A stretch of DNA of 64,000 nucleotides from Panorpa germanica (lineage: Eukaryota > Arthropoda > Insecta > Mecoptera > Panorpidae): contig OY783219.1 of NCBI GenBank assembly GCA_963678705.1, positions 11,222,001 through 11,286,000 on the forward strand, read 5' to 3'. The position numbers were made by a program, and so were the translations under genes. Positions 15,281 through 63,494 of the stretch are shown one piece after another; within the stretch, counting starts at the first letter, position 1; each line of letters begins with the position of its first letter. The notes under the pieces are model-generated. The model had not been told where the DNA came from. It saw only the letters and a list, made by a program, of their open reading frames with translations, and searched no databases.

Positions 15281-15354
15281 TATAATTTTTTTTGTTTCAG
15301 GTGAGTTGGGCTAACTTTTCTAAACTTGAGTCATATTTCTTCATTCAGGTATTT
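15281..15354 (+). promoter_or_regulatory. Candidate recursive splice site or 48-nt cassette exon
   Basis: ATTTTTTTTGTTTCAG is followed immediately by GTGAGT at 15301. A second CAG|GTATTT donor lies 48 nt on, and the 48-nt segment is open in its first frame (16 codons). The layout mirrors that at 37.3 kb, although the sequences are unrelated. Confidence 0.4.

Positions 15355-25293: not shown

Positions 25294-25349
<56 letters not shown>
25294..25349. repeat. (TA)n microsatellite
   Basis: About 56 bp of alternating TA at the interior of a SINE copy. Confidence 0.95.

Positions 25350-25354
<5 letters not shown>

Positions 25355-29753: not shown

Positions 29754-29797
<44 letters not shown>
29754..29797. 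repeat. (TA)n microsatellite next to the tetraspanin stop codon
   Basis: About 44 bp of TA beginning 9 bp beyond the tetraspanin stop, in the presumed 3' untranslated region. Confidence 0.95.
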
Positions 29798-29801
<4 letters not shown>

Positions 29802-29805: not shown

Positions 29806-31974
29806 CTAACATTCAATACGTTTTATTACATCTGCGTTAAAGTATATCATAACAAGTCCAAAACAAAATGACAAAAACGAGCAAGCCAACAATCTCCACA
29901 AGTACTCTCTGATGGTGCTGTCTATCACTGCGAAGCATCCGTCGTAGACATGATTGATTTGGCAAAAATTGTTGTGAGTCTGTGGGCAGCATGATAGTGG
30001 TAATCTCAAATCTGTTAAATAAATAAATAAATAATGTTGTGCGTTATTATTGTAAATAAACACTAAAAATGACTGAAGGAAAGTGACGTAACGATATAGG
30101 AGCAAGGGAGTATAGAAGATATTGAACAAGCCAAAGACAATAGTGTTGTACCATTGATGTACATCTGTTAAACCAATAAATTGGGATAGAATGCAATGCA
30201 AACACCTTTTTTGTTCAGAAAAGATAACTTAGGTAATGAGTTCATGCCTTAGATTACAAATAAGTTAATGAGAAATAGCTTAAGAAGAGCAATCATGTAC
30301 TCTTCCACATCCGAGTAAACATTTTATTGCTCATATAATATTGCATATATGCACAAGCCAGTGTGGACGTATGGAGTGCAACTCTGAGGTTGCACCAAGA
30401 AATCGAACATTAAAGAAATACAATTGTTTCAAAATAAAGTTCTGCGAGGAATAGTTAATGCACCGTAGTATATCCGCAATGATGACATACATAGAGACCT
30501 GAAGATTAACACATTCGGGGAAGAAATCAAAACTATAGCAGCGAAGCACGAGTTGAGACTTCGTAACCACGAAAACATCACCGTGACGCAAATGTTGCTT
30601 TTTTTTTTTTTTTTTTTATTTAATTTATTTAACGTCGGCCTATTTCCGATGCTGAGTCCTATCACCGACGACCAAATGTTGCTTGATAGTAATGAAGTTC
30701 GAAGACTTCGCAGGACTAAACCCCTGGACCTAGTAACGTAATCATGCAGAATTGTTCATTAGAGCAATCTCTACCACACCGTGTAATTATAGAATGTAAG
30801 CCACTAGATAAGTATATCTATACTTACTTGTAGTATTACAGTTAATAAAAGAAATATAAAATATTAGAATATGAACTTATAACGAGAATATTGAATTCTA
30901 AATTCTTTCGAATCGCTATATTTATAATGGGAATCGAGAGGAGAAAAAACAGATATTGGAAAATTGGTGAGGATAGACTCTGCATCGTCTGTTAGGGAGC
31001 AAAGGATCTAGAAGATATGACATGGAAATATAAAGGGAAGGTAGACAGAAGGTAAATTGTTGACAGAGGGCAAAGAAGAAAGTAACTAGTTGGCAGAAGA
31101 ACAAATAAAAAGGAAGCAGGCAGATTGATTGCAGAAAGACTATTTCACTTTATGTTTTCTTTTTTTGTAATACGATAATATAAGCCAAGATAGAAGAAAC
31201 GCTGGAGCATACGAAGAGAGATTGTATGAAAAGAAGCATAACAGATATAGTGGAAATATTAGAAGGAGAAAAGGAAGTGGATAGCAGGGATAAACAGGAA
31301 AGGAAAAGATAAATTAAATAAAAGGAAACGATAAAAGAAGAAGTGGAATTTAGTAATAAGAATATATTATAACACCAATTAATAAATATACGAATACACA
31401 TACATACGTAAAGACTACATTCAAGATGTGTTAAGCCTCACTCACACACATAAACGTACTAGGATTTAAACTATTTAAATTTACCTCCATAATCTTCATA
31501 TCCAGTAAGACCACAGCATTTGTAATGTGCCTGAATGTATGGAATGATCACAAAATCACCTTCAATATTTACAAATTTCTGCTTAAGATTATATTCCAGT
31601 TCATCAGAAAATCCATCTTTAGCAATTGTAAATATTGGTACAAGCAATGCACTAAGTATTAAATTAATAAACAAGAATACGTAGAAGACATTCAGAAGTG
31701 TATTACTTTTATTGAGAAATCCATACAATACAACTACAGTTCCGACGATGTAAAATACACCTTCACTACATAACACTATCGCTAAAGTATCAATGACGTT
31801 GTCAAGTTCAAAGATTTCTTCAGCGAACTTAATATTTCGATAGCAATCTAACCCAATAACAATCCGGAAAATGCCATCTACGAATCCGATACAATATTTA
31901 AATATACTTAAATTTTGATCATTGTAAAGTATTCTTAAAATAAATATTATAATTTTTTTAATAGAAATAATCAT
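29806..31974 (-). CDS. Divergent tetraspanin, two coding exons (31974-31485 and 30011-29806)
   Basis: Tetraspanins are four-pass membrane proteins that organise partner proteins in the plasma membrane or endosomes. Exon 1 (490 nt) encodes residues 1-163: a weak first membrane segment at about 26-45, two strong ones at about 62-86 and 92-117, and the start of the large extracellular loop with the hallmark CCG at 153-155. It ends at a GAG|GTAAAT donor. Exon 2 starts after an AACAG acceptor. The single base left over from exon 1 plus AT makes Asp164, so phase is kept. Exon 2 encodes PLSCC (168-172), Cys180, the GC pair at 188-189, a fourth membrane segment (about 200-220) and a short tail. The loop has six cysteines. 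The predicted length of 231 fits the family. The usual CCGA after segment 2 is missing, so it is a divergent member. The ATG at 31974 is the first in frame, but an upstream first exon is possible because the N-terminus is unusual. Seen: motifs, splice sites, phase. Inferred: function. Confidence 0.85.
30340..30741 (+). pseudogene. Jockey-like LINE reverse-transcriptase C-terminus, split by a SINE
   Basis: This is the end of ORF2 of a jockey-clade non-LTR retrotransposon, which copies its own RNA into genomic DNA. The plus strand reads KPVWTYGVQL, then a stop where the family has Trp. It continues through a region matching the family's IQxFQNKVLRxIVNAPxYIRN-type block (with one further stop for Trp) and on to HRDL, AAKHELRL and NHENI. 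The frame is interrupted at 30601-30672 by a SINE fragment. After that insert and one copy of the 12-bp duplication are removed, it resumes in phase as LLDSNEVRRLRRTKPLDLVT and a TAA at 30739. Sequence upstream of about 30340 is frameshifted or lost. It is a dead 3' fragment in antisense orientation within the tetraspanin intron. Identification rests on remembered family motifs. Confidence 0.85.
30601..30672 (-). mobile_element. 5'-truncated SINE fragment inserted in the jockey relic, 12-bp duplication
   Basis: The oligo-T start, the taaataaattaaat-type tail read on the minus strand, and the segment ending in the family's atcaccgacgac block identify the 3' end of the window's SINE family. The flanks are exact copies of CAAATGTTGCTT (30589-30600 and 30673-30684). 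That is the hallmark of LINE-assisted retroposition. Confidence 0.9.
30930..31340 (+). pseudogene. Degenerate LINE ORF2 C-terminus with CCHC-type zinc finger (LINE-A)
   Basis: This purine-rich block encodes, in pieces, the C-terminal Cys/His finger typical of insect non-LTR reverse transcriptases. One frame gives NRYWKIGEDRLCIVC. About 200 bp on, another gives ETLEHTKRDC with H-x4-C spacing, followed by about 30 open codons. Stops and frameshifts break it. It is antisense to the tetraspanin within its intron. I cannot assign the clade. Confidence 0.7.
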
Positions 31975-32182
31975 TATAGCAAAGAAACAAAATTGAATAA
32001 ATAACACATACTTAGTTTATCGTATTAATAAATCTGTAATATCAAAATAAGTTTAAAACAAAATTTTCTAAATTATTGATATGTAAAAGCTTGTGTTCCA
32101 GCACTTTTTTTACTTTTACTAATCATAATTTTATATTTCAAGCAAAACCTTTTATATAATTAGAATCAAAATTCAATGTGAT

Positions 32183-32398
32183 TTATAGCTGCTTCATAAG
32201 TTGATAGATGTCTTCATCCAGGTGGCAAGTAAGATCATTAATGGCATCTTGAAGTTCGAGTGCCTTATTTATAACAAACGTCGAGTTTGAAGCATTCCAA
32301 CCTTTCAATTTAGTCCCGATCATCTTCTTGTGTAAGTCTCGGATGTAAGCAACATTATCTAATTTCACCAGAAGAAGTTGTTTCTGGATTATCTTCAT
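32183..32398 (-). CDS. Unrecognised 71-codon open frame upstream of the tetraspanin
   Basis: I do not recognise a family. The frame starts MKIIQKQ and ends in QLMKQL before its stop. It is rich in Leu, Lys, Asp and Ile, with heptad-like spacing suggesting one or two amphipathic helices or a coiled coil. It has no signal peptide, membrane segment or cysteine cluster. It lies about 210 bp upstream of the tetraspanin ATG on the same strand. The frame stays open upstream past a GTG and an oligo-A-derived Lys run until a TGA, so an upstream exon is possible but no good acceptor was seen. Its amino-acid mix is less AT-driven than the chance frames elsewhere in the window. It could be a small gene, a terminal exon of another gene, or a relic. 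Confidence 0.3.
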   Translation of the reverse strand: MKIIQKQLLLVKLDNVAYIRDLHKKMIGTKLKGWNASNSTFVINKALELQDAINDLTCHLDEDIYQLMKQL

Positions 32399-32989
32399 GT
32401 TTTCCAGCTTCACTTTTTTTTTTATTCCATTTTTAAAGAATCAATTTACTTGCTCCCACTCACTTTAAACTTCTCCAAAGATTTAAGCTGAGGATGCAAG
32501 AATATCTTTATACATCTTTTACGCAGTTACATTAAGTCTAACGACAATGTACTATTTTCAAACTGCATTTATAAACTACAGAACAGAAATATTATCCGCA
32601 GCCTTCTTTTGTTATGATGTTCATTGCATGTAAGAAACAGCCTACTGGAAGCAGCCAACAAACAACAAACGAAACTCAACTGTTAACCAGAAGACCAGAA
32701 GGATTACTAGATGCAAAGTTACTCAATATCTTTTATTAAGGAAAATATTGAAAATTCCTATCTCTGACAAGAATATATGTTTGTGTTCGATTAAATCTGA
32801 CACGTTGCAGACTGCAATTTTTTTAATTTTGAGTTTGAAGATTCGAGATCATATACTTGAGTTTTGAAGCACACTTATGCGAACATAGTTACGTATATTT
32901 ATGGTATATATAACATAACAATAGTACAAATACAAAAAATATATGTGGAATAGGCAATAGGGTTGGATAAATTCACGCAGAGTTAATGG

Positions 32990-33480
32990 AATGTTATGGT
33001 AATGGAAGAAGTGAAAGGGATAAAATAAGAATTGAAGCAAGAAGAAGTGCTGTATGAATTCAAGAAAAAATTAGCAATCCAGATTGGAAAATATTAAGGA
33101 AGATTGGTACCAAAACATATAGGAGAAAAGGACACATGAAATATACGGAAAATTGCAAGATTCAGGACGGGAAATGAAGAGAAAGTCGAGAGAAAATAGA
33201 AACGTTAAAGCACATAAAAGAGTAAAATAAAAAGTGAAAAAAGATAGAGGAGCTGATGAGAGGATGCAACGAAGGGAAGAGGTGAACGATGGAGAACACA
33301 GAGAAAAAGGAAGAAAGTAGAGGAGAAGGATGAGTTGTAGTAAGCGGAGCAATAAGGAAATTAAGGATGTCAGGAAAGTAGCCTCTGAAAAGAGATAAGG
33401 AAGGAATGATATGGGTGGCAAGGGTAGAGAGAAGAAGGACGAGAAAAAAGGAAGAAGATGAAAAAACATGGAAAATTACT
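32990..33480 (+). pseudogene. LINE-A fragment
   Basis: The plus strand reads IARFRTGNEEK and, in another frame, EKIETLKHIKE. These are the conserved RFRxGN and ETLEH parts of the C-terminal finger. A long purine-rich 3' region follows. The 132- and 124-codon minus-strand frames are low-complexity antisense shadows. Confidence 0.65.
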
Positions 33481-34832
33481 CTAATTATATAGCAGAATTT
33501 ATGTAAAAGAAAATAATGCGTAACAACAAAAAACATTCATTTGTATTCAGCTTTAAAAACACTTAAATATAAATCGATTTAATAGTTTGCTTTACATCTT
33601 TTATAATGCTTATTTTTTATTTCTGTATAACACATATTTAATCATATTATCATTATTCCCCCAATACAGTAAATCTTTCAACAATACGATTTCCTATAAC
33701 GCACTAAAGATATTACCAATAACGTCAGTAAATAAATACAAAATAAACTTTAAATATTTTACTCAAATATTACTTTAATATGTAACATTACATAATGTTT
33801 CATAAGAAGTTTTATTTAAGTTAGTGAAATATTATTGGACATTATATCAATCAAAAAAATTATGAAAAAAGGAAGCTTAAATATACGTAACTACTTTTAG
33901 TGAGTTCTTGTTTTCTCTAGTTGGTTACTTCAAAAGCTCTACTAATTTTTTAAAATGTTTTTATTCAAAAAGCATAATATTATGATAAAGATAATTTGCA
34001 TATCTACTGTTATTATATAAAATAAATAATGAGTTTAAAATATAACCCTTCCCTGTCCCAGTCCCAGTCCCGGAAGCGTAATGTGATCTCTAGAGGGTTG
34101 AAACAAAGCATGCTATGTGCCTACTGTGGTAATGCTACCCTCTATGTATGTACGTACGGGTACACGAGTACCAGGGCGATGCAATTTCATTGTGATCGTT
34201 TTGAATAATACATCAGTCACTTTAAAAATGTTACCATATTTTACTGTCATACGTATTACTATCAATAAACATTGATTGTTATCATAACCTCTGTGCATAT
34301 TATAGTCGCATTCGTTGTCATGTCAGCTTACCCTTTTTGTTCATTTTAATTTTGTACTAAAGGGGGTGTTGCCAAAACACGACAAAATGCAACATTATTT
34401 GTAAATTAATTTTATAATTATTTATTTATGTGAAAGTTTAACCCTGCTCTTTTACAATTAGGTCTGTATCGTTTAAGGATTTATCATTTAGTAGTAATAT
34501 TTAGGGGTAGTATTTAAAGGATTTAAACAAACAGGTGCAAATACCAAGGCTTAATGTTGGTCAGACTAATCTCTGGACATAACCATTGGATTTATGTGGT
34601 TAATGATAATTGTTTATGATTCGTATTAAACGAAAGAATTTCCAATACGGTATAAAAACATAGCAACCCTTGAATCGTTCCCTTCTTGTATGTTTGTCAG
34701 TTTGGTTGTAGCTACGAATAATTATAATTTAATTTTTTCATTGGTAAATAAAGTTTTTTTTAATTCTTCTCCAAGAACAGTAAGTTCTTTCTATAATAAC
34801 TTGCATTATATAAATACTCATACATACCTTAA

Positions 34833-34990
34833 AAATAAATAAAAAACTAATACATAAAATTATATAAAACTTACGTGGTCAGTTGTTTGCACTACATGTT
34901 TTCTTAGGGAAAATGAGGAACTCACCTGGAAAAGAAAACAAATATTAGAATCAAATGTGAACATATTTGGGCCAGTTTATATTATGATAA
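34833..34990 (-). repeat. Left arm of a 155-bp inverted duplication with splice-like signals
   Basis: The reverse complement matches 37274-37432 with about five substitutions. On the minus strand it carries TTTGTTTTCTTTTCCAG, then GTGAGT at 34925, a 51-nt segment (34925-34875) open in its first frame, and GTAAGT at 34874-34869. Confidence 0.85.
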
Positions 34991-35992
34991 AACTGTTTAA
35001 GTTTAATTAAATTAGTATAATACTATTTTTATCTTAAAACCAAACCATTGATAAGGAGATATTACAAAAAACTGTTTTCAACAGCCATATTATATTATAA
35101 GATGGACACCAATATCTTCAACCTTGATGCTAGTATACTAAATATTCGGAATCAGCACACTCAATTTATCAGAAAAATTGATTTATCAGTTTTTTCGCCA
35201 ATTTGTTGGATCTTAAAACTATTTGGTAAAAACAAAAACAGCCGTCTAATTTGGAAATATAGAATGAAATTTTCACAGTTTACACTTTAAGCAGAATACA
35301 TTAGATAAGTGTAGAAATACATAGAAAGCGCTTGAAAGATGTACTTCATAATTTAGGAAAAAATATTAATTTATTAAATATGCGTCTACAAATTTATAAT
35401 ACTGTCCCATCTATATATCAGTCTTCTATTAATAATTTCTTTTTTTTTTTTTAATTTTTCCTTGACTATATTTCCCCCTAACATACTTGTTCAACAACTT
35501 ACAAAGACAGTTTGCTTACACCATGCCTGAAGCTCTAAACTTATTTGTCTATAAACATAAAGAAAAGAAAACCTCACAAAACATTCATAGTGTATATATG
35601 ATACTTCGTACATTTACCTTACCTTCACATCAACGCTGAATCTATATAGTGTGATGGCCTAACACAAGTCAGTAGGTAAGGGTTGACACTGTAGACTTGT
35701 AGACTTGCATTTGTATGCAGCGTTTGTCTCGTCAGTAAGCAATCTACGTCACAATAAAGTCCTCCTACTTAATAATAACGTCACAATTATGATGTTATGT
35801 GATAGTGATGTCAAAACAGCTAATATTGCGTGATTTATTAATACCTTGATCCGTAGATTATTTACCACGTTCTACCGTTAAAGTAATCTTAATATTTGTC
35901 CATTTAAGGTACAGTCAAGGTGACTATGGTCTAAATGCTTCATGGGGTGTATTGAAACAGGTCAAGATTATCTCATAAAAAATTACGGGATT

Positions 35993-36065
35993 CCAAGGTA
36001 GAAAACGAACCTTGGAATTAGCTTGTGACACTTGAACCTTGCGCTTCAAGATAATTTGTACCTAG
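35993..36065 (+). repeat. Family A copy, single unit
   Basis: This is a compact version with one unit only, from ccaaggtagaaaacgaacct to ataatttgtacctagg. It shows that the element exists in one-unit and two-unit forms. Confidence 0.65.
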
Positions 36066-36354
36066 GAGTGCAAAGTTTAAAACCAGCTAATTTGTTAGCA
36101 TATGCATATTGAGATGATGAAAGCACTCTTATTTCAAAGGATCTCGTAGAAATTAAATCATTGTTGTTAATTAATTAAAATAGAAACTGACGTACTTGTT
36201 TCGTTTGTTCCAGTTAAAATTAACACATTTTTAAATTAATTTTTTTAATGTTTTTGCATTGTGCTTAATTAAATTTTGTGATCCTTATTATATCTAATCC
36301 ATTCTCACTTCTTCCAAAAGAAAAAAAGAAAATAAAAACAAAACAGATACATTT

Positions 36355-36735
36355 AAACCCGTACTGCTTCCCTCTTCCTGCTACTCTCTCTCTTGTTTCT
36401 ACTCTGCCATTCCTTCTCTTTCCTCACTTCTCTTCTCTATCTCCGCCTTCCACCTCTTCCCTTCATCTCCCTTTAATAACTTCACAATATTCTTTTCACT
36501 TTTTACCTTTTTCTCACATTAATACTTAATGTGCTCCAGCGTTTCTATCTTCGTCCTGCACATCCTTTTGTCTCTATTTGCCCAGTATATATTGTCTTTC
36601 TCTACGTTTCCCAATCTAAATCTTGCAATTCTTCTCATGTTTCTTCTGTTTTTTTCTCTTATGTATTCTGGTATGTCTCTCTCTCCCAAATCCTCTTGTA
36701 TCTTTCATTATATTTGCTCTTCTCAATTAATGTAA
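36355..36735 (-). pseudogene. LINE-A fragment
   Basis: The minus strand encodes RIARFRLGNVEKDN, then MCRTKIETLEHIKY, a stop, and VKSEKNIVKLLK with GKRWKAEIEK. This is the best-preserved copy of the family in the window. The cysteine pair is reduced to one, so it is dead. It lies between the arms of the 155-bp inverted duplication. Confidence 0.75.
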
Positions 36736-37273
36736 AATTAACACATATAAAATAATATTAAAATAGCGCAGAAAACTGAATAAAGTAATGGACCGTCGTG
36801 CTTGCAATCGCGTCTATATGATATCTAATATTATTTAAGTGCATGAAACTGTGGTTTAACTGACGACTTTAATCAAACGATTGTTTTACTGAGTGATATG
36901 TGAAGTTAGAGCTATGTCCTCTGACGTAGGTGAGATGTGTTATTATCTGTTGCCCGTGCGACGTATATATTATGTTATTTTTGAGCGGTGCACTCTGTGA
37001 AGTATAGATTATGTTCCCAACAGAATACGAATATAGTCATGATAGAGCGTGATATAAATATACAATACGATTGATCGTGAACAAATCATTGGTCCATTGG
37101 ATTGAATTTAACACAGAAGCAAACATTAACTTAGAATTCATATGAATTGAGTCTTATAATAATGAATAATAACATTAAAAAATGCATTAGATAGAAAAAA
37201 ATCATACAACTGCATACGTAGGGGATGGCTTGAAGAATTCATCACCAAAAACTAATTGAATTAATAATATTAC

Positions 37274-37432
37274 TGTCATAATATAAACTAGCTTAAATAT
37301 GTTCACATTTGATTCTAATATTTGTTTTCTTTTCCAGGTGAGTTCCTCATTTTCTCTAAGAAAACATGTAATGCAAACAACTGACCACGTAAGTTTTATA
37401 TAATTTTATGTATTAGTTTTTTATTTAATTTT
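37274..37432 (+). repeat. Right arm of the 155-bp inverted duplication with splice-like signals
   Basis: The plus strand carries TTTGTTTTCTTTTCCAG ending at 37337, GTGAGT at 37338, a 51-nt open segment to 37388 (17 codons, VSSSFSLRKHVMQTTDH) and the donor GTAAGT at 37389-37394. The other arm differs by one silent and one Val/Met change in that segment. Confidence 0.85.
37321..37394 (+). promoter_or_regulatory. Candidate recursive splice site or 51-nt cassette exon
   Basis: A pyrimidine tract and CAG directly abut GTGAGT, the juxtaposed 3'/5' splice-site arrangement of recursive (zero-length exon) splicing in long insect introns. A second consensus donor lies 51 nt downstream, so exon definition as a 51-nt exon is equally possible. 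Strand and use are inferred. There is no transcript evidence here. Confidence 0.45.
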
Positions 37433-38555
37433 ATGGATGACAAAAACACGGCTCCAAGTTAGATTCCCAGAGCAGCGAATTACCGGGTTTAATTGATTCG
37501 CCTAATTGATTATTATGTGCCAACTATATTAAGCTAATATAAAGCAGCAAACATCACACCCAGTTAGATTTGTAGACTATCATTGGAAATAGACTGCTAC
37601 AACATTTCAATAAATGCGAATACCTCATTAAAATGTATTGAGTACTTAATTATCTACAAATATTTAAATGATTCCAATTAAAGAATCTTGAATTACGATT
37701 ATTATACGAAAATGTCTTTCAATAGCAACATAAAACATAACTTTTCTAATAAATGAATTCGTAGAAGTGTTTTGTTTACTATATTCACCATTTTTTTCTT
37801 TATTGTGATTGCATTTGCAACATTGTAACAATTAACCTTTGTAACAAATTTCCTTTTGTATCCAACACGACTTTTACATTTTTTATTCAACTGATATTAA
37901 ATATTACCCCTTTTTTATTTAATATGAATTTTTTAAGCTAAATATAGACTTGCATGTAAAAAGTTCAGCTTTTATTTAAATATGTAAATAATTAAAATGC
38001 TTTCTGTTTGTGTAACATAGAATCTCGTAATGATGAGGTTGGCAACCTAAAGTACACAGTACGTTTATTATTGCAAATTCTTCATAAGATCCTTGTTGCC
38101 CTATCAGGCGTTGACAAGGTATCGTAAGACTTGTCTGGTCCTAGTCAGGTACTTCATCGCTAGCTATGCTAAGAAAATCATGTGTAAATTTTTAATTGAT
38201 CTTTTTAATTTAGTTTTTTTTTGATTCAATTGTACAAGGTTTGTTTTCTTAAGAATAGAATACTTACATTAAATTTATGTTTTTCTTTGGACCACCACTT
38301 GCTAATATTAGATCAGAATATGCGATGTGAAGATCAAATACATGTTTTAATCATTGTGTTCTCTAATCTGATTACGACCGCTATGTCAAACGTGCTATAT
38401 TATAGATTGATTACTATATTAATAGTGAAATGTTAAACTAGTTAGACCTTAAAAAACAAAATTTATTCAGACATACTTGTTTTTATTGTAGAAAAGTTGA
38501 GACAGAAACAACGTTAACAATTTGGCTAAAAATAATCTTAATTCTAATGTCCGCC
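37433..38555. other. AT-rich noncoding DNA
   Basis: Nothing supported beyond chance frames of 62-71 codons. Confidence 0.5.

Positions 38556-63414: not shown

Positions 63415-63494
<80 letters not shown>
63415..63494. repeat. (TA)n microsatellite, about 80 bp
   Basis: The longest simple repeat in the window, between a truncated SINE and a LINE fragment. Tyr-Ile repeat frames on both strands are artefacts. Confidence 0.95.

Follow-up and report, generated by a model that had tools for sequence, protein, structure and literature searches.

The window, a 64,000-nucleotide (nt) stretch of Panorpa germanica contig OY783219.1 whose coordinates are used throughout, was analyzed together with 100 kb added on each side, making 264 kb in all (negative positions and positions above 64000 lie in the flanks). 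The flanks carry a plus-strand series of immunoglobulin (Ig)-domain pieces, belonging to a gene that becomes visible only once they are added. All seven peptide pieces submitted from this gene matched Ig families in Pfam at E values up to 0.1, with just one of the seven over its curated cut-off because the pieces are short. A search of solved structures with four pieces joined returned 11 matches, among them Robo, Dscam, neurofascin, DCC, SYG-2, and hemolin, and because the matches span these proteins, we call the gene a member of the immunoglobulin superfamily. Within that superfamily, we presume a likeness to the sidestep family.

The most amino-terminal Ig piece is a V-set exon (78630 to 78798, plus strand), which is preceded by TTTTCTTTTCTTTTATTGCAG and starts in phase 1. 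The best upstream signal-peptide exon (MACKYQAILLLLAFAFVDLCST; -48241 to -48175, plus strand) ends in phase 1 at a GTAAGA donor scoring 5.0. Because these phases agree, the two exons join as MACKYQAILLLLAFAFVDLCST-ETIKIHAGKDVTLSCPLD, open throughout, and this open join predicts a single 126.8-kb intron, inside which the whole window falls. Two other plus-strand signal-peptide-like candidates lie upstream of the V-set exon, at -965 (phase 0) and at 36529 (phase 1, within a dispersed repeat described below), each with a donor score of 3.5; elsewhere, the minus strand has one (4.9, phase 2), and a further one, which has two starts, lies downstream (3.6). No exon encoding the remainder of the first Ig domain, its second half, was found. 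The gene model, which is our own, suggests that the host is a plus-strand immunoglobulin-superfamily gene with a 126.8-kb first coding intron.

The window itself (30% G+C) yielded no exon at the first threshold of a coding scan and 20 weak ones in a looser scan, the two arms discussed below not being among them, and it gave 0 matches to Rfam families at gathering scores and 0 tRNAs. When ten selected long frames from the window were compared with Pfam, one, tetraspanin-like, scored over the cut-off, and three matched weakly below theirs. Long runs of TA dinucleotides occupy 63416 to 63494, 25294 to 25353, and 29755 to 29801. The right flank has two copies of a non-LTR retrotransposon, seen as reverse-transcriptase-like and related frames at 84353 to 86035 and 158293 to 159156 (plus strand); their translations are identical over three stretches, which suggests recent activity.

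Near the middle of the window lies an inverted pair of sequences. The initial annotation had described two 155-bp arms in opposite orientation, about 2.3 kb apart and differing at about five positions, mostly transitions. An inverted-repeat search returned this pair as arms of 161 nt, 96% complementary, with 2288 nt between them; the 155-nt arm as first delimited is 96% identical to its copy. Compared letter by letter, the arms mismatch at 7 of 161 positions (five transitions, and two transversions at the outer end), leaving 5 differences (3.3%) in the clear 152 nt. At the substitution rates that we assume for insects, this divergence would amount to a few million generations, a figure on which we do not rely. 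In every one of the five transitions the right arm has A or T and the left arm G or C, a polarity that by itself is silent on which arm is older. A gapped match continues for some 25 to 30 nt on the loop side (91% over 34831 to 35016 versus 37251 to 37430). This loop-side flank match was equalled by 18 of 4000 random stretches, compared with 335 of 4000 for the outer-side flank, which is nothing special.

Many dispersed copies, which the initial annotation had named as the sign that the arm is just a transposon terminal repeat, were not what the genome contained. With the left arm as query, a search of the whole assembly (464 Mb, 249 contigs), by a method that skips very common words, gave two candidates and two matches, which are the two arms. 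We therefore reject a transposon terminal inverted repeat, and the arms do not have the identity of a dispersed transposon end. The loop between them does contain a piece of dispersed repeat, for which a first look gave 5120 candidates; among the 40 of these that were scored, the best other copies were 81 to 86% identical. Across the 264 kb, three inverted pairs, the arms included, have at least 95% identity over at least 100 nt and lie less than 20 kb apart, and the other two each match further places within the same 264 kb. We also observed a close inverted pair in the left flank (-10229 to -9873 and -8741 to -8413), with 261 nt at 97% and an adjoining 70 nt at 91%; each 70-nt arm carries AG/GTGAGC (at -9916 and -8698, score 3.9), and part of this pair also matches near -95060.

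Features of the inverted pair and its surroundings (a slash marks a splice junction)
Feature	Position	Strand	Basis
Donor half of second candidate ratchet point, TTTTTTTTGTTTCAG/GTGAGT, in the same predicted intron	15301..15306	+	AG/GT scoring
Tetraspanin-like open frame, possible minus-strand gene	31485..32016	-	PF00335, E 8.5e-9, over curated cut-off; donor at 31484
Left arm, inverted copy of the module, antisense to predicted host gene	34827..34987	-	inverted repeat and genome search
Inverted copy of the 51-nt exon, CAG/GTGAGT junction at 34925	34875..34925	-	arm alignment and splice scoring
Dispersed-repeat piece in the loop between the arms	36257..36728	.	genome search
Right arm, sense copy of the candidate recursive-splice module	37276..37436	+	inverted repeat, 7/161 mismatches to left arm
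CTAAT, likely branch-point element, A at -20 from the junction	37315..37319	+	read from sequence
Pyrimidine tract and juxtaposed CAG/GTGAGT, candidate ratchet point, junction at 37338	37319..37343	+	AG/GT scoring
Predicted cryptic 51-nt recursive-splice exon, TGA in predicted host phase	37338..37388	+	frame analysis
GTAAGT donor of the predicted cryptic exon	37389..37394	+	donor scoring

In each arm, a CTAAT element, a pyrimidine tract, CAG joined directly to GTGAGT, a 51-nt segment, and GTAAGT follow one another in this order, an arrangement already recognized, from the pyrimidine tract onward, in the initial annotation. The CTAAT of the right arm we take to be a likely branch point, by the branch-point consensus. 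With splice-site position weights entered by hand, the arm acceptor ranks fourth among the 6399 AG sites of the window, and the GTGAGT and GTAAGT rank third and 33rd, respectively, among its 6827 GT sites (both strands, with both arms counted). Among the 1366 AG/GT sites scored on both strands of the 264 kb, the arms stand at the top with 9.05 each, a plus-strand site at 15301 is third with 8.19, and the fourth reaches 5.68. The expectation from 252 simulated sequences built from the region's four-base words is 0.06 sites of at least 8.19, and 1.9 sites of at least 5.68, per 264 kb of both strands.

Because the duplication counts as one event, these are two independent strong sites rather than three. 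The site at 15301, which is absent from the initial annotation, is a second strong CAG/GTGAGT in the same predicted intron. It and the right-arm junction at 37338 both lie in the sense of the predicted host gene, and the left arm is the only minus-strand AG/GT site in the 264 kb that scores above 8. The GTAAGT found 51 nt after 37338 is the sole donor scoring above 1 within 400 nt downstream of that junction. After 15301, a weak donor (1.64) occurs 48 nt downstream, and the short segment that follows the junction stops in the predicted host phase.

The 51-nt segment had been noted as open in frame 1, with one silent and one Val/Met change between the arms. This is what the sequence shows, but the predicted host gene could make no use of that frame. 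Read in the flanking exons' phase, the segment gives GEFLIFSKKTCNANN-stop for the right arm and GEFLIFPKKTCSANN-stop for the left; frame 1 goes on to read AAA CTA TAA, and hence a stop, in the V-set exon; and the third frame meets TGA after one base. As splicing of the segment to the V-set exon (78630) leads to a stop in all three frames, the 51 nt fit a cryptic recursive-splice exon and not a coding microexon. The microexon that the initial annotation had offered as an alternative is rejected on frame as an exon between the predicted flanking exons.

We propose that the right arm is probably a ratchet point in the first coding intron of the plus-strand Ig gene and that the left arm is its antisense inverted duplicate. 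The suggestion of a recursive splice site in the initial annotation is supported at the level of sequence for the right arm, which stands in sense in the predicted 126.8-kb intron together with the second site at 15301; use of either site is a prediction. In a first step, the donor of the signal-peptide exon (-48174) would splice to 15301, regenerating a GTGAGT donor; this donor would then splice to 37338, regenerating another; and the last donor, at 37338, would splice to the V-set exon at 78630. Two such ratchet steps would divide the removal of the 126.8-kb intron into segments of roughly 63.5, 22.0, and 41.3 kb. Downstream of the right-arm junction, the 51 nt together with the GTAAGT would define the acceptor as belonging to an exon, and if that cryptic exon were kept, the message would stop at the TGA. 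The left arm would have arisen as an inverted duplication of about 160 to 190 nt, the right arm being presumably the original, and would lie antisense in the transcript. Most likely the left arm has no splicing role of its own and is a side effect of duplication; the chance that it regulates the site by forming a stem is modest.

The right arm carries the marks of a ratchet point, namely, a strong acceptor joined to GTRAGT, a short exon with a downstream donor, and a message broken if the exon is kept; according to our gene model, it also lies in sense in the predicted 126.8-kb intron. The finding of two independent strong sites, both in sense, in one predicted intron, compared with 0.06 expected per 264 kb, argues from sequence for this proposal. 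The available portions of the literature on Drosophila describe close parallels. Fly recursive-splice (RS) exons measure about 50 nt and are followed by a donor, the cryptic ones being generally out of frame (PMC8605326); recursive sites are reported in most fly introns over 40 kb (PMC6110457); and in fly, mosquito, bee, and beetle, large introns carry several times as many ratchet-type sites in sense as on the opposite strand (PMC2773006). As far as these portions go, the right arm resembles the Drosophila ratchet points with cryptic RS-exons in kuz, Ubx, and Bx (PMC8605326 and PMC6110457) in its strong acceptor juxtaposed to a GTRAGT donor, in its exon of about 50 nt with its own donor and a stop in the message if kept, and in its sense position in a very long (here predicted) intron with more than one such site. 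It differs from them in having an inverted second copy 2.3 kb away, in an exon length that is a multiple of three, and in being known from sequence alone. The length is a counterpoint to our proposal: in the accessible text of PMC8605326, the fly exons that measure 51 nt, Ubx m1 and m2, are coding and expressed, and the cryptic exons measured there are of 53 and 56 nt. The candidate ratchet site itself is an ordinary one, of a type well known in fruit flies, and extends the sequence evidence for recursive splicing to another insect genome. Folded over the site in the RNA, the reversed copy nearby could conceal it.

This copy raises the possibility, which we consider unlikely but worth weighing, that the ratchet point silences itself. 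Within a transcript of the plus strand, the two arms are nearly reverse complements of each other, and the left one, made 2.3 kb earlier, could pair in cis with the right one and bury all of the splice signals. The double-stranded stem raised in the initial annotation is predicted to be very stable: the duplex of the arms has -230.6 kcal/mol, compared with -23.3 and -22.8 kcal/mol for the arms alone, and the predicted stem would cover the branch point, the acceptor, the regenerated donor, and the donor of the cryptic exon. The site might then be off, or used only once the stem is opened or edited, and recursive splicing here would depend on that event, a consequence that we hold to be equally unlikely.

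The arms have diverged unevenly, with 2 differences in the 133 nt of a core (37295 to 37427), 3 in the 19 nt next to it, and 6 in the 25 nt further out on the loop side. The core differs from the 44 aligned loop-side columns (9 differences) at a Fisher p of 7e-5, a value that is too favourable because the core bounds were chosen after the differences had been seen. Such a contrast is expected if pairing or identity has been kept. Selection that preserves pairing could produce it, but so could gene conversion between the arms or an outermost part that is poorly aligned, and these last two fit equally well. By our reading, only three of the five transitions stay paired, as G-U, in the plus-strand transcript, which also counts against a stem kept for its pairing. 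According to the accessible part of PMC2773006, stem predictions in large introns are sparse for fly (0.03 per 50 kb) and bee (0.53 per 50 kb), which speaks for the self-silencing reading, but beetle reaches 4.00 per 50 kb with a mean of -188 kcal/mol, and a scarcity of stems is therefore not general among insects.

In the same portion of PMC2773006, the intron stems formed by mammalian Alu pairs are like the present pair in having long inverted arms in a large (here predicted) intron, and the dimensions are near (161 nt and -230.6 kcal/mol here, against a published human mean of 158 nt and -258 kcal/mol). The present arms differ in not being a dispersed repeat and in that one of them is itself the predicted splice site, so that the effect of a stem would be to conceal the site, beyond simply shortening the intron. 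A shallow survey of the literature, in which most subscription papers were out of reach, turned up no ratchet point governed by its own inverted copy. A recursive site with a near-perfect antisense copy in the same predicted transcript is a natural experiment that could tell whether RNA structure gates recursive splicing; were the self-silencing reading true, the inverted duplicate would be the ratchet point's own antisense silencer in cis.

It is quite improbable that neither arm is used and that a chance splice-like or decayed site simply became duplicated. Strong sites do arise by chance, at the simulated rate given above, duplication itself requires no function, and the left-flank inverted pair likewise carries AG/GTGAGC sites. 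The second independent strong site at 15301, in the same predicted intron and the same sense, speaks against this explanation and for a ratchet point.

We regard it as very improbable, too, that a minus-strand transcript uses the left arm as an exon or ratchet point, e.g., as the 5' leader exon of a tetraspanin-like gene about 2.8 kb downstream. The initial annotation had pointed out that an inverted copy presents the same signals to transcription of either strand. This is true of the sequence, where every splice signal is intact on the minus strand, but no minus-strand gene using the left arm was found. The tetraspanin-like frame, nested on the opposite strand of the predicted intron, does have an acceptor, at 32033; after this acceptor, however, an in-frame stop precedes the KYVLF start, so that the frame may be incomplete or decayed. 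No minus-strand host exon for the left arm was identified in 30500 to 33000, and a non-exhaustive search upstream of the left arm identified no minus-strand exon either. The left-arm junction at 34925 is antisense to the predicted Ig gene and so lacks the sense position in a long intron that marks ratchet points. The least probable explanation, one that we can hardly credit, is a 17-residue coding microexon in two copies: frame 1 is open in both arms and the length would preserve frame, as in the expressed Ubx microexons of the available text, but the V-set exon starts in phase 1 and every frame stops as set out above, the coding scores of the 51 nt are near zero (-0.19 and -0.28), and rescue would be possible only through an additional exon between 37388 and 78630.

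Ratchet-type sites were also sought across the assembly with two patterns, both made to fit the arms and compared with reversed controls that ignore ordinary splice-site composition; one pattern occurred 20 times against 0 for its control, and the other gave 39 rows, covering 31 distinct sites, where its control gave 2. Subject to those two limits, the excess speaks for the ratchet reading. Together the patterns mark 45 distinct sites, among which six pairs lie within 150 kb, where 0.64 would be expected at random. Five of the pairs are on the same strand, coming from one three-site cluster and two two-site clusters, and the sixth, the sole opposite-strand pair, is that of the arms. Adding the site at 15301 by hand gives two further pairs, one on the same strand and one, with the left arm, on opposite strands. 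On another stretch (contig C3, 12937988 to 13033368, minus strand), three ratchet-type sites fall on one strand within 96 kb, marking a candidate multiply recursive intron.
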